NCBI RefSeq assembly: GCF_000025005.1
Contig: NC_013526.1
Span: 558,001-622,000 of the forward strand
DNA: 64,000 bases
Direction of reading: 5' to 3'
Source: Thermobaculum terrenum ATCC BAA-798
GTDB lineage: Bacteria > Chloroflexota > Chloroflexia > Thermobaculales > Thermobaculaceae
The notes beneath the pieces were generated by a model that saw only the letters and a list, made by a program, of their open reading frames with translations, was not told where the DNA came from and made no database searches. Every line of letters starts with the position of its first letter. Position 1 is the stretch's first letter. A program made the position numbers and the translations under genes. This document shows positions 43,286 through 58,324 of this stretch, piece by piece.

Positions 43286-45312
43286 TCACGATACCAGCTT
43301 ACCTATTAGGAGCACGCTAGCATGTCTAGCCACAGAGATCTCCAGCAGCCCCTTACCGTGCATCTGGAAGGATTCTCCGGTGTCCAGATTCATTAGGATG
43401 TAGTCCTCCTCAGGAGAGATGCTCCTAGGAGCGACCCTAACGCTACTTATGGCCGATGGGTCTCGGAAGGCCAGGATGGTGAACTCTCCCGAGCGTGGGT
43501 GGCAGAGCTGCCACACGTCCCAGCCTTCATGCCAGGGAGAGCTCAGGAGGGACCTGTGCCCGGAGAGCAGCGGCCTTATCACGGCTTTGTACTCGGCTAT
43601 CCCTCGGGCGAGCAGCTCCAGCTGTTGCTGGCTCCAGCTGCCGAGGCGGGCGGAGATCCCCAAGGCACCGCCCATCCTGCTGCGGAACTCGTAGGCATCT
43701 GCGCCCTCGAGCACCCAAGCGTTGAGCCACTGCAGCGGCAAGTAGTAACCCGCCCCCTGCACATGCCGCCGACAAGACGCAGCCCGGTGAGTGTAGTCGG
43801 ACAGCCATTGGATGTGTGAGTGAGTGAGCATGCCCAGGTCTGCCCTGTGGCCGCCACTGGCGCAGTTCTCGATGATGAGCCCGGGGCAGGATTCCCGCAC
43901 CGTGGCCAGCACTCGGTACAGCCCCATCGTGTGAGCGTAGTGCCCATCGCCCGCCTGATGGCCGTGGTCCTCCCTGTTGCATCCGGCGGCGTACCCCATG
44001 TTGTAGTCCCACTTGAGCCACTGCACACCGTACTCGTGCACCACCCTGACCACCTCGCTCGCCATCCAATCCTGGACATCAGGGTTGCCCAGGCAGAGGT
44101 GCCCCGCGATCTCATCCCCCCATCTACGGGTGATGGGCACCCCGTCTCTTGCCGCCAGCCACTCGGGATGCTCCGTGGCTACCTCCCCCTGCATGTCCAC
44201 CCGCTCGGGCTCCACCCACAGCCCAAAGCGCATTCCCAGCTGCCTGATGCGCTCGCCGAAGCCCCACAAGCCCGAGGGAAAGCGGCTGCGGTCCTCCCGC
44301 CACTGCCCCCACCATGAGACGTAGGAATCGGGCCTCCTGCCAGCGAACCAGCCATCGTCTATGACGAAGACCTCGCATCCCACCCGCGCAGCTATCTCCG
44401 CCTCGGCCAGCAGCCTAGCCTCGTCTATATCCCCTTCGTAGGCGTACCAGTGGTTGTACTGTACCCAGGGCCAGTTCTCTGGGATGGGAGGCGCGAGATA
44501 CCTTAGCTCCCATACGCGCAGGGCGTTAGCTGCCTCGTCCAGGTCCCCCGAGAACCCCAGCAAGAGGGCCCTCGGCAGCTGCAGAGCGCCTCCGGGGGCC
44601 AGCAGGTGTTCGAAGTTAGATAGTCCCAGCGCCATCCTCGCACCCGCTGGGGTGTACCTAGCTTCCATCCGCCAGTGGCCGGACCAGAGCAGCGCCCCCA
44701 TGACCCCACCGCCGCCTCCTTGTAGGCAGAACCAGGGGACGAACTCTCCAGTGGACCTGCCGTCCCCTGCGGAGGCGTAGACCCTCGGCCTGGATAGGCT
44801 ATAGCTCAGCCTGTCCAGGGTCTGCAGGGCGTATCCCTTGGGCGGTAGCGCGTCGTCGTAGGCCCCTCCTCTGAGCACGCTCAGCGTAGCGTCGCCGGTC
44901 GGCCTACAGGTCAGCTGCAGGGAGGAGGGATTGCCGATCGCTACCGGCAGGTCGGAGATGTTCTGGATCTCTGTGTCCTAGCTGATGACACCCGAATCGG
45001 GATAGGCCTTCAAAGTCAGCAGGACGCGAACGGGGGTATCTCCAAGCTGGCCGGTGATGTGCAGCGCCTGCTCGCCGGATGGCTCCGCCGACGCCCACCC
45101 ACGCAGCTCGCACAGCTCGTCCAGTGCGCGCGAGCCCACGGACACGTTCAGCACCGGACTGGGGACGGGCTCCAATCCCCGCCCCCACACGCCACCCTCG
45201 CCAGCCTGAGACGCCCCAGGTCATCCCTGACCAGCTCTAAGGAGAGCGCCGTGCTACCGATGACGTATCTGCCCAGCTCGTCGTCGGCCTCGGCATGGAC
45301 TCCGGCCACCAC
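43286..45312 (-). pseudogene. GH36-like alpha-galactosidase, broken by an amber stop and a frameshift
   Basis: The main piece (from 44878 down) contains CEVFVIDDGWFAGRRPDSY, GLWVEPERVDMQGEV, LKWDYNMGY with the nucleophile Asp, and ENCASGGHRADLGML. Upstream in the same frame the sequence runs YPDSGVIS, TAG (44980-44978), DTEIQNISDLPVAIGN, a continuous family pattern interrupted only by the stop. Further upstream the start (GTG 45312 or 45309, then VVAGVHAEADDELGRY) is in another frame, joined through a G-rich run near 45176-45187. With both lesions repaired the length would be about 675 residues, normal for GH36. It directly follows the sugar-binding protein gene. Confidence 0.75.
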
Positions 45313-45323
45313 CGAGCGCTCCC

Positions 45324-46673
45324 TCAGGAGACCTTCCCGGTCTTCAGGAGGTTCTCCAGCTTGGGTCTCACCTCCTTCATGGCATCTGCTGCCTGCTTGT
45401 CGCCCCTGAGCACCGCATCCCACGCTGGGTTGAATATGTCCCGGAACTCCACGACGTAGCCTCCGAAGTACTTGCCCATTTTGTCTCCCGGCGTCCTCAG
45501 GATGCTCTGATCCAGCTGATCAAGGAACACCTGTTTGTGCTCTGGTGGTACCTTGGGGTTGAGGAACACCTGGCTGTTGGCAAGCTTCTTCAAGGGTGGG
45601 ACGCTCTGCCCCAGCTCGGCAACTATCCTCTGTCCTTCCTCCGAGCAGCAGAAGGAGATCCACTTCCAGGCAGCTTCCTTGTTCCTTGCCGCGGCGGTCA
45701 TCGACAGGGGAGAGTACCATCCCGTGGACACCCTGACCTTGCCCTTGGGGAAGGGGGCCACGTCCCACTCGAAGAGGAAGGAGATCTGCCCCTGTTGTTG
45801 GAACTGAGGGCTTGGGGAGATGTAGTGCTTGGTGCCCAGATCGGCCACGAACTGTAGGCCCTCCGCGGCCGCGGGTTCATCCAGGGGTACCTTGCCGTCT
45901 TTGGTAATTACCTCGCCTCCGTTGCCCCAGACCCACAGCCAGGGAACCCAGGATGCCTGGGGGTCGAAGGCGTACTGCTTGATGCGCCGAGGGTCGAAGC
46001 CGGCCTCGCCTGGGTGCTTGCCGTTGCGGTCGAGCGTGAGCTTCCGGCCGTACTCCAACAGCTGGTCCCAGGTTATGGGCTCCTCCGGGCTGAGGGGTGG
46101 TATGCCCGCCTGCTTGAACAGATCCTTGTTGTAGAACATCGCCATGGAGCCTCCGTCGTAGGGCAGGCCATAAGTCTTGCCCTCGTACTCTGAGGTGTAC
46201 CAGGCTATGGGCAGGTAGTCGCTCTTGTCGAACCTGGCGTCGTTGGCTATGAAGCTGTCCAGGGGCTCCAGGGCTCCTGCCCTGATCGAGGAAGTTATCG
46301 TACAGTCGCACTCGAACAGGCAGTCGGGCGGGGTGCCGCTGGCGAGCTTGAGCTGGAACTTCTGATAGAAGTCTCCTGGCACCTCCTCTATCTGGACCTG
46401 GATGTTGGGCTCCCTCTTCTGGAACTCGTCACGCAGCCTGTGGAAGACCTTGAAGATGGCCTCGTCTCCCCTCGCAAAGAAGTTCACTGTGCCGCTGGCC
46501 GAGCCACCGCTCGGCGGGCTGGAGGCTATGGGGGTGGCGCTGCCGCCCGTGCTGGGGGTGTTGGCCGAACCACCCGAGCTGCCACAGGAGCTCAGGGCTC
46601 CCCCCAGCGCGATGGTCGCGCCCAGCGTCCCCATCTGCTTCAGAAAACTGCGTCTGCTGTAAGTACCTGCCAT
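45324..46673 (-). CDS. Sugar ABC transporter substrate-binding lipoprotein
   Basis: A 449-residue family 1 solute-binding protein. The N-terminus combines a twin-arginine-like motif (YSRRSFLKQ) with a lipobox (ALSSCGSSGG), so it is a lipoprotein held at the outer face of the membrane. The two-lobe fold is recognised by FHRLRDEFQKREPNIQVQIEEVPGDFYQKFQLKLASGTPPDCLFE, and by GLPYDGGSMAMFYNKDLFKQAGI and GQISFLFEWDVAPFPKG. It collects oligosaccharide for the two permeases just upstream. AGGAGGAAAGTC precedes ATG 46673. No ATPase is encoded here, so a shared MsmK-type ATPase must power it. Confidence 0.92.
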   Translation of the reverse strand: MAGTYSRRSFLKQMGTLGATIALGGALSSCGSSGGSANTPSTGGSATPIASSPPSGGSASGTVNFFARGDEAIFKVFHRLRDEFQKREPNIQVQIEEVPGDFYQKFQLKLASGTPPDCLFECDCTITSSIRAGALEPLDSFIANDARFDKSDYLPIAWYTSEYEGKTYGLPYDGGSMAMFYNKDLFKQAGIPPLSPEEPITWDQLLEYGRKLTLDRNGKHPGEAGFDPRRIKQYAFDPQASWVPWLWVWGNGGEVITKDGKVPLDEPAAAEGLQFVADLGTKHYISPSPQFQQQGQISFLFEWDVAPFPKGKVRVSTGWYSPLSMTAAARNKEAAWKWISFCCSEEGQRIVAELGQSVPPLKKLANSQVFLNPKVPPEHKQVFLDQLDQSILRTPGDKMGKYFGGYVVEFRDIFNPAWDAVLRGDKQAADAMKEVRPKLENLLKTGKVS

Positions 46674-46691
46674 GACTTTCCTCCTGTAGTT

Positions 46692-47591
46692 TTATGCCTT
46701 GATGCCTGTCAGGACTATGCCTTCGATGAAGGTGCGTTGCGCTAGGAAGAACAGCAAGATGATGGGAGCTATCATGATCACCGATACGGCCATCACCAGA
46801 TGGGTCATGTCGCGGCCCCACTGCAGACCCTGCAGCGCCGCCAGGCCCAGTGCCAGCGTCCTCTTGTCAGCTGAGGAGAGGTACACCAGGGGGCCGAAGA
46901 AGTCGTTCCAGTGCGATAGGAAGGAGAAGATCGTCACCACCGCCAGGGCGGGCTTGGAGAGGGGCAGTATGATGCGGGTGAAGATCACCCAGGAGCTGGC
47001 GCCGTCTATCCTCGCGGACTCGTCCAGGTCCAGCGGGATGGTTCTGAAGAACTGCCTCAACAGGAAGATGAAGAAGGCGCCGCCTCCGAACCAGTAGGGC
47101 ACGATCAGCGGCAGGAAGGTGTCCAGCCAGCGCAGCGCCTTGAACAGGATGAAGGTGGGGATCAGGGTCACGGTGTAGGGCACCATGATGGTAGCCAGGA
47201 CGACCGCGAACACGAAGTCCCTGCACGGCCAACGCAGGCGCGCGAAGGCGTAGGCGCCCATCGCCGAGGTGGTCACCTGGCCGATCATCGCCAGAAAGGT
47301 GATCGTCAAGGTGTTGCGCAGGTACCTGAGGAAAGGCAGCGCCGAGAGCACCTCAGTGTAGTTGCTCCACCTGGGAGGATTGGGGATCCATTCCGGGGGC
47401 AGCACGAAGATCTCGTTGGGCCCCTTGAGCGAGCTGCTCACCAGCCAGGCGAAGGGCAGCAGCATCAATAGGCCGCCGAGCGTCAACAGCGCGTAGGCTA
47501 TGGCGCTACCGATCAACCTCCGAGCCCTCTTGCCCAGGAGCACGCCCTTGCGTGCCTGTGTGTAGCCTTCCGCAGTTCTTACCGTGGTCAT
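46692..47591 (-). CDS. Carbohydrate ABC transporter permease (MalG type)
   Basis: A 299-residue inner-membrane protein with six predicted helices. It contains the EAA-type cytoplasmic loop LDESARIDGASSWVIFTRIILPLSKPALAVV, characteristic of MalG/LacG permeases that contact the ATPase. It begins four bases after the MalF-type permease gene and is followed 18 bases later by the binding protein. It forms half of the sugar channel. Confidence 0.93.
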   Translation of the reverse strand: MTTVRTAEGYTQARKGVLLGKRARRLIGSAIAYALLTLGGLLMLLPFAWLVSSSLKGPNEIFVLPPEWIPNPPRWSNYTEVLSALPFLRYLRNTLTITFLAMIGQVTTSAMGAYAFARLRWPCRDFVFAVVLATIMVPYTVTLIPTFILFKALRWLDTFLPLIVPYWFGGGAFFIFLLRQFFRTIPLDLDESARIDGASSWVIFTRIILPLSKPALAVVTIFSFLSHWNDFFGPLVYLSSADKRTLALGLAALQGLQWGRDMTHLVMAVSVIMIAPIILLFFLAQRTFIEGIVLTGIKA

Positions 47592-47595
47592 GGCA

Positions 47596-48540
47596 TCACC
47601 CCGCTCTCTCAGCTTCGTAATACACCCAACGGTGCTGGAACTTGAACATCAGATAGGTCAGCACGACTATGATCAGGAACAGCACCCAGGAAAGGGCCGC
47701 GGCGTAGCCCACCTTGAAGTACTGGAAGGCGTTGCGGTACAGGTACACCATGTAGAACAGTGCCGAGTCGCTCGGGCCAGCGCTGCCCGAGCCCGTGGGC
47801 GTGTATATAAGGTAGACGATCGTGAAGACCTGGAAGGAGTTTATGATCCCTAGAATCAGGTTGAAGAAGATGATCGGAGACATCATGGGGATGGTGATGT
47901 GTCGGAACTTGTGCCAGAAGTTGGCCCCATCTATCTCCGCCGCCTCGTACAGGTGGGTGGGTACCCCCTGCAGACCCGCGAGAAACACCAGCATGGTGCT
48001 CCCCAAGCCCATCCATAGGCCTATCATCACGAGTGAAGGGATCGTCCACCGCGGCTCTATCAGCCACCCTGGGGTGGGCAGGCCCAGGTTACCCAACATG
48101 ATGTTGAGCAGTCCGAAGTCCCTGTTGAGGATCCACCTCCACAGCGCGGCTCCTGCTGCAGCCGGTACCAGGCTGGGCAGGTACCATATCGTGCGGTAGA
48201 AAGCGATGCCCCTCACCTTCTGGTTCATCAAGAGCGCCACCAGGAAGCTCAGGATCAGGCTAGCTGGGATGCTAACCACGCTGTAGTAGAGCGTCGCTTT
48301 CAGGGACGTCCGGAACAGCTGGTCCTGGAGGAGCATCTGCTCGTAGTTGGCGAGCCCCACGAAGCGCGGTGGGCTAATGATGTTGTACTCCGTGAAGCTC
48401 AGGTAGAACGAGTAGATGATGGGATAGGCCGTGAAGATCAGCAGCCCCAGGATCGCTGGCCCCGCGAAGAGCAGCCCATCCAGGCTCTCCCTGCCCCTCA
48501 GACCTCTGAATCCGCCACTCTTAGCTATACCTCCTGCCAT
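47596..48540 (-). CDS. Carbohydrate ABC transporter permease (MalF type)
   Basis: The 314-residue protein has six predicted helices and the EAA loop LYEAAEIDGANFWHKFRHITIPMMSPIIFFN, typical of MalF/LacF. The N-terminus contains LLFAGPAILGLLIFTAYPIIYSFYLSF. It is the first gene of the importer operon, transcribed from the promoter at 48574-48602 and divergent from the eight-gene catabolic operon. The cargo is probably an oligosaccharide cut by one of the GH2 enzymes. Confidence 0.93.
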   Translation of the reverse strand: MAGGIAKSGGFRGLRGRESLDGLLFAGPAILGLLIFTAYPIIYSFYLSFTEYNIISPPRFVGLANYEQMLLQDQLFRTSLKATLYYSVVSIPASLILSFLVALLMNQKVRGIAFYRTIWYLPSLVPAAAGAALWRWILNRDFGLLNIMLGNLGLPTPGWLIEPRWTIPSLVMIGLWMGLGSTMLVFLAGLQGVPTHLYEAAEIDGANFWHKFRHITIPMMSPIIFFNLILGIINSFQVFTIVYLIYTPTGSGSAGPSDSALFYMVYLYRNAFQYFKVGYAAALSWVLFLIIVVLTYLMFKFQHRWVYYEAERAG

Positions 48541-48691: not shown

Positions 48692-48721
48692 GATGGCTAG
48701 ATCTGGTCATTGGAGGTAGGG

Positions 48722-50125
48722 TTGGAAGAGCTGAGGAGAGAGGGTTTAGAGGTATCGGAATCTCTGGTGGACAGGCTGGCCTACTCGCACGATGCCTGGC
48801 CGCTGGAGCTGAAGGCCGCAGTGCTCGGTCGGCCTCACTGGCTGCCCAGGGCCGTGGCCTGGCCCGAGACCACCGAGCAGGTGGCCGTGCTCCTGCGCTG
48901 GGCCCAGCGTCACCGGGTACCGGTGGTGCCGTATGGTGGGGGCTCGGGCATCGTGGGAGGTGCGCTGGCGGATGGGTCGGCCCTGGTGGTGGACCTCAAG
49001 CGCATGGGGCGGGTGTTGGAGGTGGACGAGAGCTCGCTATGGGTGCGCGCGCAGGTCGGGATCAGCGGGCAGTACCTGGAGGACCGCCTCAACGCCAGGG
49101 GGCTGACGCTGGGGCACTTCCCCCAGTCGATGCGGGCCTCCACGCTTGGCGGGTGGCTGGCGCACAGGGCTGCCGGGGTGGCCTCCACCCGCTACGGCAA
49201 GATAGAGGACATGGTGCTGGCGCTGGAGGTGGTGCTGCCGGATGGCGAGGTGGTGCGCACCTCTCGGGTGCCCCGCGCGGCCACGGGTCCGGACCTGGAC
49301 CAGCTGTTCGTGGGCTCTGAGGGGTGCTACGGCATCATCACCGAGGCCACTCTCCAGCTGCACGCCTTGCCCGAGGTCCGTCGCTGGCGGTGCTACGCCG
49401 TGGGCGAGTTCGAGCGGGGGCTCGAGGCGGTGCGACGCGTGCTGCAGCGCGACCTGCGACCAGCCATCGTGAGGCTGTACGACGCAGTGGAGGCCACCCC
49501 CTACCTTGAGCCCTGGGGGCGAGCCGGGGAGTGCCTGCTGCTGTGGGGCTGCGAGGGGTACGCTGACATGGTGGCGCTGGAGGTGGAGCACATAGAGGCG
49601 ACCTGCCGGGGGCAAGGGTGGAGCGACCTGGGGGATGGCCCCGCGGAGCTGTGGTGGAGTCGACGGTTCAACACCCTGGGACTGGTCCGCCCGCTGCTGG
49701 AGTCTCGGGGGGTGGCCGATGCGCTGGAGGTGTCGGCCGACTGGAGCTGCCTAGGCAGGGTCTACGAGGGCATGCGGGAGGCCATGCTGGCGGCGGTGGG
49801 GGAGCGCGGGAAGGTCTACGGCCACCTCTCCCACGCCTATCTGACGGGGGCCAACCTGTACATGATCTTCTCCGCGGAGGCCGAGGACGAGGAGGCGGTG
49901 GCCCACACCTACTGGCGGGTGCTGGAGGCGGCGTTCGAGGCTTGCCTGTCGCTGGGTGGCAGCCTCTCCCACCACCACGGGGTGGGGCTGGCCAAGGCGC
50001 GGTGGCTGGGGAGGGAGTGGGGAGCCTCAGGGCTGCGGGTGCTGTGGCGGCTACAGCAGGCGCTGGACCCTGGAGGGATCATGAACCCCGGCAAGGGGCT
50101 GCACCCGGAGGTGGGCGATGCTTGA
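48722..50125 (+). CDS. FAD-binding oxidase/dehydrogenase (GlcD/AGPS-like)
   Basis: A 467-residue protein with the FAD_binding_4 domain: RVPVVPYGGGSGIVGGAL, GHFPQSMRASTLGGWLAHRAAGVASTRYGKIEDMVLALEVVLPDG, and a GlcD-like C-terminus with SLSHHHGVGLAKARWL and ALDPGGIMNPGKGL. The family oxidises 2-hydroxy acids (GlcD, lactate) or handles alkyl-DHAP. With an adjacent CCG-like protein, a GlcD-GlcF-type pair is suggested. The start is TTG 48722, five bases after GGAGG; TTG 48710 is less likely. It overlaps the next gene by eight bases. Confidence 0.82.
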   Translation: MEELRREGLEVSESLVDRLAYSHDAWPLELKAAVLGRPHWLPRAVAWPETTEQVAVLLRWAQRHRVPVVPYGGGSGIVGGALADGSALVVDLKRMGRVLEVDESSLWVRAQVGISGQYLEDRLNARGLTLGHFPQSMRASTLGGWLAHRAAGVASTRYGKIEDMVLALEVVLPDGEVVRTSRVPRAATGPDLDQLFVGSEGCYGIITEATLQLHALPEVRRWRCYAVGEFERGLEAVRRVLQRDLRPAIVRLYDAVEATPYLEPWGRAGECLLLWGCEGYADMVALEVEHIEATCRGQGWSDLGDGPAELWWSRRFNTLGLVRPLLESRGVADALEVSADWSCLGRVYEGMREAMLAAVGERGKVYGHLSHAYLTGANLYMIFSAEAEDEEAVAHTYWRVLEAAFEACLSLGGSLSHHHGVGLAKARWLGREWGASGLRVLWRLQQALDPGGIMNPGKGLHPEVGDA

Positions 50126-51200
50126 GAGGTACAGGGAAGCTATCCGGCGCAACGCCATGGCGCACGAGCAGGAGCTTTTCGCCACTCCCGAGGTGTGGGC
50201 GCTGGGCAGTCACGCCCACACGGTGTCGCGGCGGGCGCTGCTGCTGTGGCTGGTGCTCACGGGCCACATGGACTGGTCGAGGGAGCTGGGGGATGTGCTG
50301 TACGCGGCGCTCACCGACGGCGCCCAGTGCGCCTTCTCCGTGTACCGCTACTCCGAGGAGGGCTGCCCGGAAGAGACCCCCTACCTGCGGGCGGCCAGGG
50401 CGGAGCTGGTGCGGCGGGGGCTGGCTCCCGAGTACGTGGAGCGGGCCAGGGAGGCCTACCTCTCAGAGGGTACGCCCTGGGGCAAGCTGGAGCGGTGGAC
50501 GGCGCCCGGGGAGGTTGTGCTGCTGGTGGACGCCTCCACCCTGGCGCTCTCGCCCGAGGTCGCCGAGGCCTGCCGGCGGGTGGCCCAGCGGGTGCGCCCG
50601 GAGGTGGGGCTGCTCGCCGGAGTGACCACGGGCTACGAGCTGTACGACCTGGGGCTGTGGGACGAGGCCGAGCGCGCCGCCAGGGAGGTTGCCGGGGGCC
50701 TCCAGGCGCTGGGGGCGCGGCTGGTGGTTGCGGACTCGGCGGAGGCCGCCTACGCGCTACGGCGCATCTGCCCGGAGCTCGGGGTAGAGCTCGGGTGCGA
50801 GGTGGTGCACGTATCGCAGTGGCTGTGCGGGCTTGGGGACGGCCTGCCACCCTGGAGGTACGAGGGGGTGGTCACCCTGCACGACTCCTCCCGTCTGGGG
50901 AGGGGGCTGGGGGTGTACGATCCTCCCCGCGAGCTCATCAGGCGTACCGGTGCGCAGCTGCGAGAGCTGCGCTATCATCGAGAGCAAGCGCTGCCATCGG
51001 GGCCCACCTTCGGCTACCCCTATCCCGAGGCCGTCGAGGCGATAGCGCGGCGGCGGCTGGTGGAGGTCCTGGAGACCGGGGTGGAGGCGGTGATCACCAC
51101 CTCCCCCTACGCCCGGCGCAACCTCCGCCTGGTGGCCCCGGGGGCCGAGCTGAGGGTGTTGGACCTTGTGGAGTGGCTACAACACTGTTGGGAGGGATGA
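50118..51200 (+). CDS. CCG-domain (HdrD/GlpC/LutA-like) protein lacking cluster cysteines
   Basis: The 360-residue protein follows the two-fold CCG-domain pattern of GlcF/GlpC/HdrD Fe-S proteins. Examples are GYELYDLGLWDEAERAAREVAGGLQALGARLVVADSAEAAYALRR, HDSSRLGRGLGVYDPPRELIRR and AVITTSPYARRNLRL. At each position where relatives have cluster cysteines there is another residue: VTTGY for CCG, HDSS for HDPC, ADSAEA for SCPGC, SGPTFG for CCGGGG and SPYARR for CPFCKR. Seven cysteines remain elsewhere. It probably cannot hold the usual [4Fe-4S] cluster. The gene overlaps its neighbours' frames and is clearly translated with the operon. Confidence 0.6.
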   Translation: MLERYREAIRRNAMAHEQELFATPEVWALGSHAHTVSRRALLLWLVLTGHMDWSRELGDVLYAALTDGAQCAFSVYRYSEEGCPEETPYLRAARAELVRRGLAPEYVERAREAYLSEGTPWGKLERWTAPGEVVLLVDASTLALSPEVAEACRRVAQRVRPEVGLLAGVTTGYELYDLGLWDEAERAAREVAGGLQALGARLVVADSAEAAYALRRICPELGVELGCEVVHVSQWLCGLGDGLPPWRYEGVVTLHDSSRLGRGLGVYDPPRELIRRTGAQLRELRYHREQALPSGPTFGYPYPEAVEAIARRRLVEVLETGVEAVITTSPYARRNLRLVAPGAELRVLDLVEWLQHCWEG

Positions 51201-51204
51201 GCGG

Positions 51205-52044
51205 ATGGACGCGCGCACTGGCAAGAAGATCAGGCTGGGCAGGCTGTTTAGGCCCTCCAGCGGCCGAGCCATCGTGGTGGCCTACTCGCACGGGCTGCTG
51301 ATGGGGCCCATGGAGGGGATGGTCACGCTGGAGGAGATGAGGTGGAGGGCGTCGGCGCTGCGGGCGGCCGAGGGGTTGATGGTCTCCCCGGGCATGCTGG
51401 GGCACCTGGAGGAGGTGTTCGTGGGGCCTGACGCGCCGGCGCTGGTGCTGCACCTGGACTGGCAGAACTTCAGCCGCAGGGTGCTGGCCTACCCGCAGGG
51501 CGTGTCGGTGGCGCTGGCGACGGTGGAGGAGGCGCTGGCCGCGGGGGCGTCGGCGGTGATGACGTACATGTTCGTGGGGCACGCCGACCCTCACGACGAG
51601 CGGGAGGAGATAGAGCGCAACGCTCGCATCGCGCGGGAGTGCGAGCGGCTGGGGCTGCCGCTGATCATCGAGCCCAGGAGCGCTCGGGAGAAGACGCACC
51701 CGGAGGACAGGACGGACGTGGGAGTGCTGGGGATGTACGTGCGCGTGGCGGCGGAGGTGGGGGCGGACGTGGTCAAGTGCATCTACCCTGGGGAAGGCGA
51801 CGCCATGGCCAGGGTGGTGGAGGGTTGCCCCGTGCCGGTGTTGGTGGCTGGAGGGCCTCGCAAGGAGACGCTGCGGGAGGCGCTGGAGGTGGCCGAGGTG
51901 TGCGTGAGGGTCGGCTGCGGGGGCATCATGTTCGGCCGCAACATCTACCAGGCGGAGGATCCCAGGGCGGCGCTGGAGGCCTTCCAGCGCGTGGTGCATG
52001 AGGGGCTGAGCGCCCAGGAAGCACTAGCTAAGATGCAGAAGTGA
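51205..52044 (+). CDS. Class I aldolase of the DhnA/FbaB/LsrF family
   Basis: A 279-residue TIM-barrel aldolase. The Schiff-base Lys lies in AEVGADVVKCIYPG. Phosphate binding is given by VPVLVAGGPRKET and VGCGGIMFGRNIYQAEDP. The N-terminal segment usually reading DHG is SHG here (AIVVAYSHGLLMGP), an unusual change next to the active site. It would cleave a ketose 1,6-bisphosphate into DHAP and an aldehyde phosphate, or act as a sulfosugar or LsrF-type enzyme. It starts at ATG 51205 after GGAGGGATGAG, four bases behind the CCG-like gene. Confidence 0.8.
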   Translation: MDARTGKKIRLGRLFRPSSGRAIVVAYSHGLLMGPMEGMVTLEEMRWRASALRAAEGLMVSPGMLGHLEEVFVGPDAPALVLHLDWQNFSRRVLAYPQGVSVALATVEEALAAGASAVMTYMFVGHADPHDEREEIERNARIARECERLGLPLIIEPRSAREKTHPEDRTDVGVLGMYVRVAAEVGADVVKCIYPGEGDAMARVVEGCPVPVLVAGGPRKETLREALEVAEVCVRVGCGGIMFGRNIYQAEDPRAALEAFQRVVHEGLSAQEALAKMQK

Positions 52045-52053
52045 GGTGACAAG

Positions 52054-52845
52054 ATGTCGTTGATAGATCTTTCGCAGGTGGCAGGCTTTGAGGTGGCTCT
52101 GGACCCGCACGGGCTGGAGCTGCGCTTTGGGGAGGGGATAACGAGCGATCCCCCCGAGGTGCGGCGCAGGGCGGACATCCGGCAGATGCTGCTGGACCCC
52201 CAGGCAGAGGGCCCGGACCACCTCTACACCATATATATGCACATCCGCCTGGGGCGGGCGGCGGCGCTCGAGGAGCGTGGCCTTGGCCTGGGGGCGGTGG
52301 TCTACGCCGCCGGCACCGTGGGGCGAGAGCGGGTGCGCAGCCAGGGGCACGTGCACTCCTGTCCGCCCGGCACGGAGCTGGCCTACTCGGAGGTGTACGA
52401 GTTCTGGCACGGCAGCGGGCTGATGTACCTGCAGGACGTGGCCTCCCCGGAGGTGTCGCGGGTGCTGCTGGTGCCGGTGGGGCCCGGGGACAAGGTGCCC
52501 ATCCCTCCGGGCTGGGTGCACGTGGTGGTCAACACGGGGGAGGAGCCCCTCGTGCTCGGGGCGGTGTACGCGTTGGAGACCAGGCTGCTGTACGAGCCGC
52601 TGCGGGAGCTTGGAGGTACCGCGTACTACGTGCTGGCGGATGGTGGGTTGGAGAGGAACCCACGCTACCGACGGGTGCCCGAGCCCAGGAGGGTGTCGGT
52701 GCCTCGGGGCCGGCAAGCCTGCCTGGAGCCCGATCTGCCGATGGTCCGAGCTCTCATGGAGGATCCCTCCTGCTACGACTACGTCTCCAGGCCCCAGGAG
52801 CACAGGGCTCTGTGGGACTGGCTGCTGGGGGAATGGGGAGGATGA
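52054..52845 (+). CDS. Cupin-type phosphoglucose isomerase
   Basis: The 263-residue protein matches the archaeal/cupin PGI family (PF06560): GHVHSCPPGTELAYSEVYEFWHGSGLMYLQD, with metal ligands His-x-His and Glu, and the later PPGWVHVVVNTG with the fourth His. The enzyme interconverts an aldose 6-phosphate and a ketose 6-phosphate with a bound Fe or Mn ion. Finding it in a bacterial sugar operon suggests a dedicated isomerase. It overlaps the PfkB gene by four bases. The sugar could be glucose or galactose derived. Confidence 0.9.
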   Translation: MSLIDLSQVAGFEVALDPHGLELRFGEGITSDPPEVRRRADIRQMLLDPQAEGPDHLYTIYMHIRLGRAAALEERGLGLGAVVYAAGTVGRERVRSQGHVHSCPPGTELAYSEVYEFWHGSGLMYLQDVASPEVSRVLLVPVGPGDKVPIPPGWVHVVVNTGEEPLVLGAVYALETRLLYEPLRELGGTAYYVLADGGLERNPRYRRVPEPRRVSVPRGRQACLEPDLPMVRALMEDPSCYDYVSRPQEHRALWDWLLGEWGG

Positions 52846-53813
52846 TCCTGACGGTATCTCCCAACACCTCCACCGACAGGGTGTACGTCGTCTCGGGGTT
52901 CCGTCCCGGGGCGACGATGCGCAGCCACCTGAGCTTCGACCAGGCTGGGGGGTCGGGCGCCCACGTCAGCGGCGTGGTGGGGCAGTTGGGCGGGGAGAGC
53001 AGGGCGCTCGTGGTGCTGGGCGGAGGCAACGGCCTGCGGTGGCGGGCTGCGGCCGCCCGCCAGGGCATAGACTACCGGGCGGTGGAGATCGACGTCGAGA
53101 ACAGGTCCTCCGTGGTGGTGGTGGACAGGCAGCTGGGGTTGGTGGCCGAGATCGTGGATGGGGGGCCGCGGCTGGGGGGAAGGGAGCACGAGGCCCTGCT
53201 GGAGCTGCTTAGGCGGGAGCTGCCGGCGGCCTCCCTGCTGGTGCTCTCCGGCAGCCTGCCCGCCGGCATGCCCCAGGACCTGTACTTCTCGGCGATCGAG
53301 GTGGCCAGGGGGCACGGAGTGAGGGTCATCATCGACGCGCACTCGGAGCCTATGGAGGCCGCGCTGGGGGCTCGTCCATGGATGGTGAAGGTCAACCTGG
53401 AGGAGTTCGGGGGGCTCATGGGGGGATACCCCAGGGACATGGCTGAGAGGGTGGGGGCAGCGCAGGAGTTTGCCGCCCGACATGGGATCGAGGTGTTGCT
53501 GCTCTCCATGGCGCAGGAGGGGGCCGTGTTGGCCTATGGGGGGCATGCCTGGCACCTGCCAGTGCCCCCGGTTCCCAGCCACCTGCCGGGCTCGGAGGGC
53601 ATCAATCCAGTGGGGTGCGGCGACGCCATGGTGGGGGCATTCGCCTGGGCCTACGAACGGACGGGCGATGTACTGGAGGCCGCCCGCTGGGGAGTGGCGG
53701 CGGCGCACGTCAACTTGGCCAAGTACGAGGTGCCCTCGTGCCCGCTGCCCGAGGTGGAGGCGGTGCTGAGTTTCGTGGAGACCAGGATGGTGGCGCAGGA
53801 GGAGAAGGTATGA
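52842..53813 (+). CDS. PfkB-family sugar phosphate kinase (1-phosphofructokinase/LacC-like)
   Basis: A 323-residue ribokinase-fold protein. The N-terminus is ILTVSPNTSTDRVYVVSGFRPGAT, with the substrate loop QAGGSGAHVSGVVGQLGG. The ATP-site motif is INPVGCGDAMVGAF, whose Asp is the catalytic base. It most likely phosphorylates a ketose 6-phosphate or 1-phosphate to a bisphosphate for the aldolase. The start ATG 52842 overlaps the isomerase stop (ATGA). Confidence 0.88.
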   Translation: MILTVSPNTSTDRVYVVSGFRPGATMRSHLSFDQAGGSGAHVSGVVGQLGGESRALVVLGGGNGLRWRAAAARQGIDYRAVEIDVENRSSVVVVDRQLGLVAEIVDGGPRLGGREHEALLELLRRELPAASLLVLSGSLPAGMPQDLYFSAIEVARGHGVRVIIDAHSEPMEAALGARPWMVKVNLEEFGGLMGGYPRDMAERVGAAQEFAARHGIEVLLLSMAQEGAVLAYGGHAWHLPVPPVPSHLPGSEGINPVGCGDAMVGAFAWAYERTGDVLEAARWGVAAAHVNLAKYEVPSCPLPEVEAVLSFVETRMVAQEEKV

Positions 53814-54751
53814 GCCAGGTGTACCTAGCGTACGATGTGGGGGGCACGCGCATCAAGAGCGGGCTGGTGAGCGCGGACGGCAGGGTGCTCCGGAGGCTGG
53901 TGGTGCCCACGGAGGGGCATCTGGGTGTCCGGCACGTGCTGGGCAAGCTGGTGGAGCTGGGTAGGCAGCTAGCTGGGGGGCAAGACCTGGGAGGGATAGG
54001 CGTGGGCTTCACAGGGGTGATAGATCCCTCCACCGGCACCGTCCTGCAGCTCAACGGCAAGATCCCGGACGTGGAGGGAGTCAGCGTCGGGGGGTATCTA
54101 CAGGAAGCTTTTGGAGTGCCCACCAAGGTGGACAACGATGCCCGGGTGTACGCGCTGGGGGAGTGGGTGTACGGGGCTGGTCGGGGTTACTCTGATGTGG
54201 TGTGCGTCACGATCGGTACCGGGGTGGGCACCGGGGTGATAGCTGGCGGCAGGCTGCTGAGGAGCTCTGGGCTGCTCGCTGGGATCCTCGGGGGACACTT
54301 CACGGTGGACGTCAACGGGAGCCTGTGCTCCTGTGGGAACATAGGGTGCTGGGAGGTGTACGCCTCGGCCACAGCACTGGTCAACGCGATGGCGGATCAC
54401 CTGGGGAGGGGCTGTGGCTCGGAGCTTGTGGGAGGCGAGCTGAGCGTGGAGAGGGTGTTGGGTGCTGTGGAACGTGGAGATGGGCTGGCTTGCTGGGTGT
54501 TCGAGCGTTGGCTGCGGTACCTGGCCAGCGGGGTGGTGACGCTGATCCACGCCTACGACCCTCAGGTGGTGGTGATAGGCGGTGGGGTGATGGCCAGGGG
54601 AGAGCTGGTGCTGCCCAGGGTGAGGGAGCATGTGCGCGCCCACGCCTGGACATACCCCAAGGGCAGGGTGGAGGTGAGGGGGGCAGAGCTGGGAGATGAC
54701 GCAGCGCTGCTGGGAGCAGCAGCGCTGGTGATGGGAGGTTACGATGGCTGA
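53810..54751 (+). CDS. ROK-family sugar kinase
   Basis: A 313-residue ROK protein with phosphate loop YDVGGTRIKSGLV, a sugar-binding segment VDNDARVYALGEWVYGAG, GTGVGTGVI for ATP, and the zinc-binding CSCGNIGCWEVYAS. All catalytic features are present, so it is a kinase rather than a repressor; no DNA-binding domain is attached. It probably makes a sugar 6-phosphate from a free hexose. It overlaps the neighbouring genes by four and eight bases. Confidence 0.92.
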   Translation: MSQVYLAYDVGGTRIKSGLVSADGRVLRRLVVPTEGHLGVRHVLGKLVELGRQLAGGQDLGGIGVGFTGVIDPSTGTVLQLNGKIPDVEGVSVGGYLQEAFGVPTKVDNDARVYALGEWVYGAGRGYSDVVCVTIGTGVGTGVIAGGRLLRSSGLLAGILGGHFTVDVNGSLCSCGNIGCWEVYASATALVNAMADHLGRGCGSELVGGELSVERVLGAVERGDGLACWVFERWLRYLASGVVTLIHAYDPQVVVIGGGVMARGELVLPRVREHVRAHAWTYPKGRVEVRGAELGDDAALLGAAALVMGGYDG

Positions 54752-55538
54752 GCCTAAGACGAAGCATTCCCAGCTGCGCAAGGAGCAGATCTTGCAGCGG
54801 CTGCTGGAGCGAGCCGAGGTCACTGTGGAGGAGCTGGTGGAGGAGCTCGGGGCGTCTCCGGCCACGATTCGCCGCGATCTGGCGGAGCTGGAGCGGGAGG
54901 GTTTGCTACGGCGCACGCACGGGGGCGCCTCTCTTGCCGAGCGGATGCTGTACGAGCCCTTCCTGCACGATTCCTCCTTCGAGGCCCAGGTCCGCAGAGA
55001 GAGCGAGGCCAAGAGGAGGATCGGCCTGGCGGCCGCCTCCCTGGTGGCCGACAACGAGACTATCTCGTTGACACCTGGCACCACCACCACGCAGGTGGCC
55101 AGGAGCATCCGCCATCGCAGGGGCATCACCGTGATCACGACCACGGTAAACGTGGCGATGGAGCTCAGCAATCGCGAGGACCTGACCGTGTTCGTGGCCG
55201 GCGGCTTCCTGCGCGGCAGTTGGTTCTCTCTGGTCGGCAGCTTCACCATCCGTGCAGTGAGCGAGTTCTTCGTGGACAAGGTGTTCATAGGCGTCAACGG
55301 TATCCATGCTGAGAAAGGGCTCACCTGCTGGAATGCCGAGGAGGCGGCCGTCAACAGGGCACTCATCGAGCACGCCAAGCAGAAGATAGTTGTGGCCGAC
55401 CACACCAAGCTGGGTGCCCTGGCCACAGCCCTGATATGCCCCACCAATTGGGTGGACATACTCATCACGGACACAGGGGCTGCCGAGGAAGCTGTGCAGC
55501 CCTTCAGAGATCTTGGGATTGAGGTGATACTGGTATGA
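54744..55538 (+). CDS. DeoR-family transcriptional regulator
   Basis: The 264-residue protein has the DeoR winged helix at the N-terminus (RKEQILQRLLERAEVTVEELVEELGASPATIRRDLAELEREGLLRRTHGG). The sugar-phosphate sensing domain follows: TISLTPGTTTTQVARSI, FVAGGFLRGSWFSLVG, FIGVNGIHAEKGLTCWNAEEA and VVADHTKLG. A phosphorylated intermediate of this operon is the likely inducer. The palindrome at 48626-48649 is a candidate target. It starts eight bases inside the ROK gene and overlaps the GH2 gene by four. Confidence 0.93.
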   Translation: MAEPKTKHSQLRKEQILQRLLERAEVTVEELVEELGASPATIRRDLAELEREGLLRRTHGGASLAERMLYEPFLHDSSFEAQVRRESEAKRRIGLAAASLVADNETISLTPGTTTTQVARSIRHRRGITVITTTVNVAMELSNREDLTVFVAGGFLRGSWFSLVGSFTIRAVSEFFVDKVFIGVNGIHAEKGLTCWNAEEAAVNRALIEHAKQKIVVADHTKLGALATALICPTNWVDILITDTGAAEEAVQPFRDLGIEVILV

Positions 55539-58324
55539 TGATCTATCCTGGCTTGCTGCCCTCCCACGACAGGGAGCAGCTGGACCTCACGGGTGAGTGG
55601 AGCTTTGCGCTGGATCCCGATGGCAGGGGTGAAGCTGAGGAGTGGTACAGGAGGCTGCAGAGCGGGCGCATCCTGGTGCCCGGCTCCTGGGAGGAACAGG
55701 GCTACGGCGAGCGTCCTCCCGAGCAGATCATCGGCTGGAGCAAGAAGCGTAGCTACGAAGGAGCTGCCTGGTATGTGCGCCAGGTGGAGATCCCAAACGT
55801 CTGGCGCGGCAAGAAGATCTGGTTGCAGCTGGAGGGGGTCAACTGGACGACAGGCGTATGGCTCAATGGCACCTATGCGGGCTCTGGAGATTCGCTGAGC
55901 ACGCCCCATAGGTTCGACCTGACGGACCTCGCTCATCCGGGTGAACCTAACCTGCTGGCCATCAAAGTGAACAATAAGGTAGAGGGGATCTTGAACTACG
56001 AGGCCCACATCCACTCGAGGCACACTGCCACAAACTGGGGTGGCATCGTGGGCGCTGTACGATTGGTGGCCACCCCGCGGACTTGGATAGAGGGGTTGAA
56101 GATCTTCCCAGACGCCCACCGGCGCACGGTGCGCTGCGAAGTCTTGGTGGCCTCCACCACTGGGGCGAGGGGTACGGTGGAGGCCAGGGCTGAAGTCGAG
56201 GGGCGCAGGATCGCTGGAGCGAAGATGCCCCTGGAGATAGCCCAACCGGGAGTGAAGGGCCTTACCCTGACCCTCGAGTTAGGGCCGGATGCTAGGCTGT
56301 GGTCGGACCGCGACCCTTTCCTCTACGAACTGCACCTGGAGCTTGCCACGGAGGAAGGTGTGGACGTCGTGGACACGAGGTTCGGGCTGCGCACGTTTGA
56401 GGTGCGCGGCAGGAAGCTGTACCTCAACGACGAGCCCCTCTACCTGCGTGGGTACGTGGACTGCTGCATATTTCCCCTCACCGGCTATCCTCCACACGAC
56501 AAGAGCGTGTACCTGCAGCAGTTTCGGAGGGCCAAGGACTACGGTTTCAATCACGTTAGGCTGCACTCCTGGACGCCCCCAGATGCCTTCTATGAGGCCG
56601 CAGACGAGGTGGGGATGCTGGTGCAGAACGAGCTCCCCAACTGGGGGAACTGCAACGACCCTCGGTACCTGGCTGGTGCCGGCAATTTCCTGAGATCGGA
56701 GCTGGAGAGGGTGGTGTTGCACCTGCAGCGGCATCCTTCATTAGTGATCCATTGCATGGGCAACGAGCTGCTGCAATCTGCACCTCACGGAGCCTCTCAT
56801 CGGTACAGCCCGTTCCTCAACCAGCTGGTACGCAGGGGCAGGGAGCTGGACCCTTCCAGGCTGTACCTGGACCAAAGCGGGTTTGGGCACCTGCCCGAGG
56901 AGCCGGACAGGGAGACCGACCTCAACTCCTACAGGTCTTTCCGGGGCACGACCCCGGATAGCACGACCACCTGGTCCACCAGGGTTGCCGGTGGGCGGCT
57001 GCCGGTGATCGCCCACGAGCACACCCAGATGGACATGTACACAAGGCTGGACTCATCCCCCAAGTTCACCGGAGTGATCGAGCCCTCCTGGGAGGCCCAG
57101 GCGATGGATGCTCTCGCGGCCAAGCAGCTGCTCGATGAAGCGGATAGATACTACCGAGCATCGGCGCGACTGCAACTGGTGTGCATCAAGGAGCAGTTCG
57201 AGAGGATCAGGCGCACTCTGGAGCTCAGCGGCCTACAGATGCTCAACCTGACCGACTTCCCCGGGCAGGGCACTGCCCTCAACGGCGTGCTGGACGTTTT
57301 CTGGGAACCCAAGGGGCACGCATCAGCTGAGGTCTTCAGGCAGTTCAACGCCGAGACGGTGTTGCTGTGCGCGTGTCCGAGGCGTACTTTCCCCGAGGGT
57401 GGGTGGCTGGAGGCCAGGTTGCTCCTGTCCCACTATGGTCCAGACAGAGTGCGCGGTGATGTGCGTTGGGAGCTGGCGGCAGGCCAGGACGTCCTGGCCT
57501 GTGGCAAGTTGGCTGTGGGAGACGTGCCGCCTGGGGGGTTGTACGAGGTGGGAACCCTGGCCCTCAGGATGCCTACAGGGCCCAAGAAGCTAACGCTGCG
57601 GGCTCATCTGGAGGGCAGCCACGTGCACAACTCCTGGGACTTCTGGGTGTTCCCCACAGGTAGGACCCAAGAGGTGGGCGCAGGAGTGCGGCTGAGCCCA
57701 GGCCTCGCCTGGCTGGCGGACTACTACGACCAGATGGAGGTCATTGACCGCCGTGAGCACCACCGAGGGGTGATACTTACCGATCGTCTGAACGTGCGCT
57801 ATGTGGAGGAGATGTACAACGGGGCCACTGTGGTGTACCTGGCGGAGAACGACGAGCTGCAGGACGCGATACCCACAGGTTTTGAATCCCTCTTCTGGAC
57901 CTACCTGTGGTTTCCCAACCAACCGCGCACCACGATGGGCCTGGTTGTGGAGGACCACCCCCTCATGCGGCGTTTCCCCCACGATGGGCACTCCGATTGG
58001 CAGTGGTACCATCTCGTGGAGGGTGCCAAGGCGGTGGGGATGGAGGTCTTGCCCTCGGATCTCAGACCTATCGTGGCTGTGGTGGACAACTGGCACAGGG
58101 CGAGGAAGCTGGGGTACATGCTCGAGGGACGTGTGGGCAGGGGCAGGTTCCTGATGACGACGCTGCAGCTGCTGGGGGAGTATCCCTGCCATCCCGAGGC
58201 CGTGTACCTGCTGGACCAGCTGCTGGGCTACATCCAGGGAGAGGAGTTCTCTCCAGCCACCAGGCTTACCCTAGCTCACATCTGGTCACTGCCCAGATCC
58301 CCCATCCATGGTGGCCATCTGTAA
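55535..58324 (+). CDS. Glycoside hydrolase family 2 (cytoplasmic)
   Basis: A 929-residue GH2 enzyme with the N-terminal sugar-binding domain (LTGEWSFALDPDGRGEAEEWY... VPGSWEEQGYG), an Ig-like domain and a TIM barrel. The acid/base Glu lies in HCMGNELLQS, and a likely nucleophile region is PVIAHEHTQMDMY. A long C-terminal domain of about 300 residues follows. No signal peptide is present, so it would cut imported oligosaccharide. It is the last gene of the operon, overlapping the DeoR stop by four bases. Substrate specificity cannot be read from the sequence. Confidence 0.88.
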   Translation: MMIYPGLLPSHDREQLDLTGEWSFALDPDGRGEAEEWYRRLQSGRILVPGSWEEQGYGERPPEQIIGWSKKRSYEGAAWYVRQVEIPNVWRGKKIWLQLEGVNWTTGVWLNGTYAGSGDSLSTPHRFDLTDLAHPGEPNLLAIKVNNKVEGILNYEAHIHSRHTATNWGGIVGAVRLVATPRTWIEGLKIFPDAHRRTVRCEVLVASTTGARGTVEARAEVEGRRIAGAKMPLEIAQPGVKGLTLTLELGPDARLWSDRDPFLYELHLELATEEGVDVVDTRFGLRTFEVRGRKLYLNDEPLYLRGYVDCCIFPLTGYPPHDKSVYLQQFRRAKDYGFNHVRLHSWTPPDAFYEAADEVGMLVQNELPNWGNCNDPRYLAGAGNFLRSELERVVLHLQRHPSLVIHCMGNELLQSAPHGASHRYSPFLNQLVRRGRELDPSRLYLDQSGFGHLPEEPDRETDLNSYRSFRGTTPDSTTTWSTRVAGGRLPVIAHEHTQMDMYTRLDSSPKFTGVIEPSWEAQAMDALAAKQLLDEADRYYRASARLQLVCIKEQFERIRRTLELSGLQMLNLTDFPGQGTALNGVLDVFWEPKGHASAEVFRQFNAETVLLCACPRRTFPEGGWLEARLLLSHYGPDRVRGDVRWELAAGQDVLACGKLAVGDVPPGGLYEVGTLALRMPTGPKKLTLRAHLEGSHVHNSWDFWVFPTGRTQEVGAGVRLSPGLAWLADYYDQMEVIDRREHHRGVILTDRLNVRYVEEMYNGATVVYLAENDELQDAIPTGFESLFWTYLWFPNQPRTTMGLVVEDHPLMRRFPHDGHSDWQWYHLVEGAKAVGMEVLPSDLRPIVAVVDNWHRARKLGYMLEGRVGRGRFLMTTLQLLGEYPCHPEAVYLLDQLLGYIQGEEFSPATRLTLAHIWSLPRSPIHGGHL

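Follow-up and report, generated by a model that had tools for sequence, protein, structure and literature searches.

The iron-sulfur subunit of GlcDEF-like and GlpABC-like enzymes carries electrons from FAD to quinone. The locus described here raises the question of what becomes of a subunit of this type when none of the cysteines that would hold its clusters is left. The protein concerned, 360 residues long, is encoded on the forward strand at positions 50118..51200 of the 64,000-nucleotide stretch of DNA that was analysed ("the window"). The window belongs to chromosome 2 of Thermobaculum terrenum, whose finished genome consists of two contigs and 3,101,581 bp. An ordinary, intact GlcF-type protein with 18 cysteines is encoded elsewhere in the genome, on chromosome 1, showing that the T. 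terrenum cell does encode such proteins. T. terrenum YNP1 is strictly aerobic and grows best near 67 °C (PMC3035366).

The open reading frame of the CCG-like protein is intact from the ATG at 50118 to the stop at 51200, and its start overlaps the stop of the preceding gene by 8 nt (ATGCTTGA). A GGAGGT motif (50107..50112, +), read directly from the sequence 5 nt before the ATG at 50118, is the probable ribosome-binding site. The preceding gene (48710..50125, +) encodes an FAD-linked oxidase of the AGPS/GlcD-like type with a PCMH fold (Pfam FAD_binding_4, 4e-40; FAD-oxidase_C, 3e-36), which is the putative catalytic partner. The oxidase retains the GGGSG and SHHHGVG motifs; among solved structures it comes closest to alkyl-DHAP synthases (E 4e-58) and to D-lactate/glycolate oxidases.

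A DeoC/DhnA-type class I aldolase gene of the same operon begins 4 nt after the CCG-like gene (51205..52044, +; Pfam DeoC, 2e-27). It is followed on the same strand by a cupin-type, archaeal-like phosphoglucose isomerase homologue (52054..52845; Pfam GPI, 2e-21), a PfkB-family hexose kinase resembling 1-PFK (52812..53813; TIGR03168, 2e-60; Pfam PfkB, 2e-27), a ROK-type sugar kinase or regulator (53615..54751; assigned from the open reading frame and sequence features only, its true start probably lying downstream of 53800), a DeoR-family regulator (54744..55538; Pfam DeoRC, 2e-47) and an open reading frame for a GH2-like glycoside hydrolase (55535..58324; tblastn 6e-37 to a neighbour at locus L071). 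A homologue of this hydrolase adjoins a related FAD oxidase in genome G024 (L071). The open reading frames of a divergent cluster (43286..48540, -) encode an alpha-galactosidase-like glycoside hydrolase, a sugar-binding protein and two ABC permeases, homologues of which flank the FAD oxidase at loci L071 and L077. The setting of the operon is sugar catabolism, and the aldolase, isomerase and kinase neighbours indicate that the oxidase substrate is probably a hydroxy acid or a sugar derivative.

Intact homologues encoded beside related oxidases served as the reference for the ligand positions. They have 18 conserved cysteine columns, of which the ferredoxin segment contains eight and each CCG domain five, and in the alignment the window protein has a cysteine at none of them. 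In the former 2x[4Fe-4S] ferredoxin segment (residues 12-74; 50151..50339, +) the eight ligands are replaced by N12, A15, E19 and T23 and by A64, D67, Q70 and S74. The five ligands of the former CCG domain 1 (residues 139-210; 50532..50747, +) have become A139, T170, T171, S207 and A210, and those of the former CCG domain 2 (residues 258-332; 50889..51113, +) S258, P293, S294, S329 and A332. The seven cysteines that are left (72, 83, 150, 218, 227, 237 and 357) all lie outside the ligand columns. The HD..RLGR.LGVY.PPRELI scaffold of the former CCG domain 2 is retained, and 25 of the 36 other conserved positions are unchanged, against 0 of the 18 cysteines (Fisher p=6.9e-7), so that the loss of the cysteines is not due to chance.

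The initial annotation had described a recognisable GlcF/HdrD scaffold with its cluster cysteines replaced, quoting VTTGY, HDSS, ADSAEA, SGPTFG and SPYARR. All of these motifs are present, and the scaffold is borne out by the conserved non-cysteine positions and by a predicted fold that matches EtfD. Its account of the cysteines was correct for the CCG sites but incomplete, as the two N-terminal 4Fe-4S sites are gone too. With no ligand left, the sequence agrees with its term "cluster-free". Of the checks it had suggested, the profile search gave a sub-threshold score with Pfam CCG (PF02754; 13.1 bits against a gathering cut-off of 20.6), so automatic annotation would miss the protein; the NCBIfam equivalogs were all far below their cut-offs. 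The structure prediction yielded a confident model of the GlcF type.

This model, calculated by AlphaFold2 from 22 aligned sequences, covers the full length with a mean pLDDT of 94.6 and a pTM of 0.93. Its top structural match is EtfD of Mycobacterium smegmatis (PDB 9ojn; Z 27.3 over 346 residues, spanning residues 1-360 of the model, rmsd 2.7), followed by LutA (Z 26.0), an H. pylori protein of the same three-part fold that is listed only as uncharacterised (PDB 3kwl; Z 22.4 over 310 residues, 8% identity) and HdrB (Z 21-22 over residues 131-360). Because AlphaFold2 gives cofactor proteins their fold even though the cofactor is missing, and intact homologues were part of the alignment, the confident model speaks for compatibility with the fold rather than for stability of the apo-protein. 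A profile search of the solved structures gave significant matches, in contrast to a search with the window sequence alone, which found nothing significant. Used as a single query against genome contigs and viral contigs, the window protein found no relatives.

The window protein shares with GlcF/GlpC/LdhH/TfrB/HdrD-type subunits the domain order (two [4Fe-4S] ferredoxin sites and two CCG domains), the length, the HD..xLGR..GVY..PRE and C-terminal DL.E.L motifs and a gene position immediately after that of a GlcD/AGPS-like FAD enzyme. It differs from them in that 0 of the 18 cluster-ligand positions hold a cysteine. EtfD, a membrane protein, carries a cluster in each of its four sites, whereas the window protein has ligands for none of the four; it begins at the ferredoxin-like segment, aligns with EtfD residues 283-747 only and, judged from this start and alignment, would lack the transmembrane region that precedes the soluble iron-sulfur domains in EtfD, FadF and DgcB. 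Since the three-part fold and the adjoining FAD gene are present while the ferredoxin cysteines (0/8) and the CX(n)CCG...CXXC sets (0/10) are absent, the protein is classed as a variant of these subunits that has become cluster-free, rather than among the iron-sulfur proteins. Judged from its sequence, it would carry no bound metal. Among the ETF-quinone oxidoreductases, the EtfD homologues FadF and DgcB lack the cysteine ligands of one CCG cluster, D1 of EtfD (PMC13083937). Only the D1 ligands are reported missing there, whereas all four sites are gone in the window protein. In the literature searched, which covered few subscription papers, FadF and DgcB were the only precedent for cluster-free GlcF/CCG proteins and complete loss was not found. 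A whole two-ferredoxin, two-CCG relay subunit that has lost its 18 ligands but neither its fold nor its position next to the oxidase thus appears undescribed in that literature.

The closest oxidase among the 158 genomes searched at class level is that of G498, a genome of a different family, which is 59% identical to the window oxidase. Gene order is the same, the start of the CCG-like gene overlapping the oxidase stop by 4 nt. The G498 gene runs into a contig end after 198 residues; 197 of these align with the window protein at 49% identity, and of the 11 ligand cysteines that fall within this part none is present. Several ligand sites carry the same replacement in both proteins (N12, A15, Q70, S74 and T170), and no frameshift or stop has arisen between the two genes, which belong to two families of the class. 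The differences at codon positions 1, 2 and 3 are 0.37, 0.35 and 0.57, against 0.67, 0.75 and 0.60 for shuffled codons, showing constraint at positions 1 and 2 with position 3 near saturation; NG86 dN/dS is about 0.5, but with dS itself near saturation this ratio carries little weight. The identity, the shared ligand-free state, the overlap and the codon-position pattern together show that the ligand-free state is inherited and constrained. For the CCG-2 half of the window protein, the constraint rests on the fold and on residual identity to intact relatives, because the G498 orthologue is truncated. The earlier statement that the gene is not simply decayed is upheld by this diverged, equally ligand-free relative, by the conserved overlap and by the confident fold prediction. 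Close relatives with intact cysteines, which would have spoken against a cluster-free protein, were looked for, and the closest relative is ligand-free too, intact ones occurring only at about 30% identity or less. The proposed survey of homologues for the same substitutions showed the loss to be shared by G498 and to form a graded series in others.

The series emerged from oxidase scans at phylum and class level, of GTDB contigs (a sample of at least 80 loci) and of plasmids. By their neighbourhood the oxidase loci fell into three kinds: those with an intact partner, those whose partner had lost some or all of its ligands, and those without a partner. The pair of FAD oxidase and CCG-type protein occurs in L070, L071, L073, L074, L086 and others, and the cysteines kept across the sampled pairs number 16-18, 13, 11, 6-9, 3, 2 or 0 of 18. 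Intact or nearly intact partners are found in L070, L073, L074, L075, L090, L091 and L109, with all 18 present in L070, L074, L090, L091 and L109. Thirteen remain in L101a, 11 in L077, nine in L093 (where the partner is cut by a contig end), eight, exactly the ferredoxin set, in L087, L101b, L114 and L118, seven in L098 and L127, six in L100, three in L071 and two in L084; the window protein and the partial L086 have none. In most depleted partners, the CCG ligands were lost before the ferredoxin ligands. The L071 partner also models as a GlcF-type fold, with EtfD as its best match (pLDDT 81.6). According to sequence features and record annotation, the operons with depleted partners contain FGGY kinases, class II aldolases, cupins or sugar transporters and are again those of sugar catabolism.

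The oxidases of the window, G498 and G024 form one group in the tree (UFBoot/SH-aLRT 94/94; SH-aLRT 96 in a larger tree), and L084 falls into a separate, strongly supported clade in which most partners are ferredoxin-only. A topology that constrained the four "lost" rows, a group named after the first tree had been seen, to a single clade was rejected (p-AU 1.6e-6); near-complete loss therefore arose at least twice. The ferredoxin-only partners of clade B (L087, L101b, L114 and L118) resemble the window protein in oxidase family, gene pairing and the loss of all ten CCG ligands, but keep all eight ferredoxin cysteines, so that a short relay may remain in them.

The L084 partner (L084:7374-8498) is WP_140758438.1 of a Mesorhizobium sp. 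B2-1-8 plasmid, a "hypothetical protein" of GlcF type with 2 of 18 cysteines, encoded beside an FAD oxidase and a xylulokinase; a plasmid search for further copies found only the protein itself. The clade of L087, L101, L114 and L118, to which L098, L100 and L127 also belong, keeps all or part of the ferredoxin cysteines, has lost most or all of the CCG ligands, and extends over Bacillota, Planctomycetota, Lentisphaerota and Chloroflexota; the genes next to its members encode kinases, aldolases and cupins. Two oxidase/partner pairs lie on a single Firmicutes contig (L101:1620-4155 and L101:6881-9439), with 13 and 8 of 18 cysteines, offering a natural comparison of ligand loss inside one genome.

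Many related oxidases among the loci sampled have no CCG protein downstream and often an FGGY kinase instead, showing that the oxidase can work without the relay. A search of these loci for diverged, hidden partners with a lax profile (HMMER --max) found none. The "hypothetical protein" downstream of the oxidase in L083 (Microbacterium) was considered as a CCG relative and rejected, being an unrelated membrane-like protein. AGPS-like FAD oxidases without an iron-sulfur partner lie in apparent sugar operons in L072, L088, L089, L094, L095 and L105, several of which have an FGGY-type kinase directly after the oxidase.

The partnerless loci bear on the main rival to a partner role, namely that the CCG-like subunit is a relict without a function of its own, heading for deletion. 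Because oxidases related to those of clade A lack a partner (L072, L083, L088 and L089), this stays a live reading, and the L071 partner is already more divergent, with 20% identity to the window protein and the lower pLDDT given above. Nevertheless, it is unlikely: a relict would hardly be expected to keep 49% identity across two families free of frameshifts and stops, the five common replacement residues, the start-stop overlap and a very confident full-length fold.

Somewhat less likely still, the emptied pockets might bind another metal, a substrate or a regulator, making the protein a sensor or a subunit that completes an active site rather than a passive scaffold. The former ligand sites hold small residues (T, S, A) and not bulky fill, and the two-CCG module superposes on the pseudo-twofold Asp/Glu racemase fold, in which the ligand lies between two domains. 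With a Z of about 6-9 and an rmsd above 6, however, the superposition is weak and might also be obtained with ordinary CCG proteins, and a new, conserved set of metal ligands did not show up.

It is very improbable that at least one iron-sulfur cluster is still bound, through non-cysteine ligands or the off-site C72, C83, C218, C227 and C237. Non-cysteine ligands do exist in the family, His583 of EtfD binding cluster D2 (PMC13083937), but no ligand column of the window protein has a cysteine or histidine, and none of its cysteines up to residue 197 recurs in the G498 relative, whose 198 residues include a single cysteine. The unusual loss of otherwise invariant residues might finally suggest a pseudogene, a sequencing error or a miscalled frame, which can be dismissed in view of the finished genome, the intact frame with its ribosome-binding site, the full-length homology and the same state in the G498 orthologue of a second genome.

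On balance, the probable explanation is that the window protein is a GlcF-type subunit whose electron relay became dispensable while the folded protein stayed on as a partner of the AGPS/GlcD-like oxidase. The ancestor would have been a GlcF/GlpC/HdrD-type relay subunit, with two [4Fe-4S] ferredoxin sites and two CCG domains, of an AGPS/GlcD-like FAD dehydrogenase. A ligand-free subunit cannot relay electrons, and many related oxidases lack a subunit of this type altogether, so another route must be open to the oxidase; the FAD enzyme may reduce an acceptor for which clusters in the CCG-like subunit are not required, such as O2, a quinone or a soluble carrier. The clusters would then have been lost and the folded polypeptide retained, most likely for stability of the complex, for substrate-tunnel or membrane docking, or for regulation. 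A role as partner or scaffold, as first proposed for this gene, would fit the conserved gene pair, and the CCG-like protein may be in physical contact with the oxidase. Exposure to O2 as the sole cause of the loss was set aside, ferredoxin-only forms being present in Clostridiales and Oligosphaera, which are anaerobic groups.

Since the loss was stepwise and happened more than once among relatives, the protein seems to have outlived its wiring, and the order in which the ligands disappeared can be read from the living intermediates, with 18, 13, 11, 8, 3, 2 and 0 cysteines. More tentatively, though still plausibly, there may be a recurrent class of "de-wired" GlcF-type subunits, which lost first the CCG and then the ferredoxin clusters in several bacterial lineages and survive as dedicated subunits, with a structural or regulatory task, in FAD oxidases whose electrons now go to another acceptor. 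Such proteins are named "hypothetical", as in Mesorhizobium, or fall under family cut-offs, which is a warning for annotation, and an iron-sulfur relay should not be assumed in operons that carry depleted partners. The survival of a redox subunit after the loss of its cofactors thereby becomes testable with a handful of expressible proteins.
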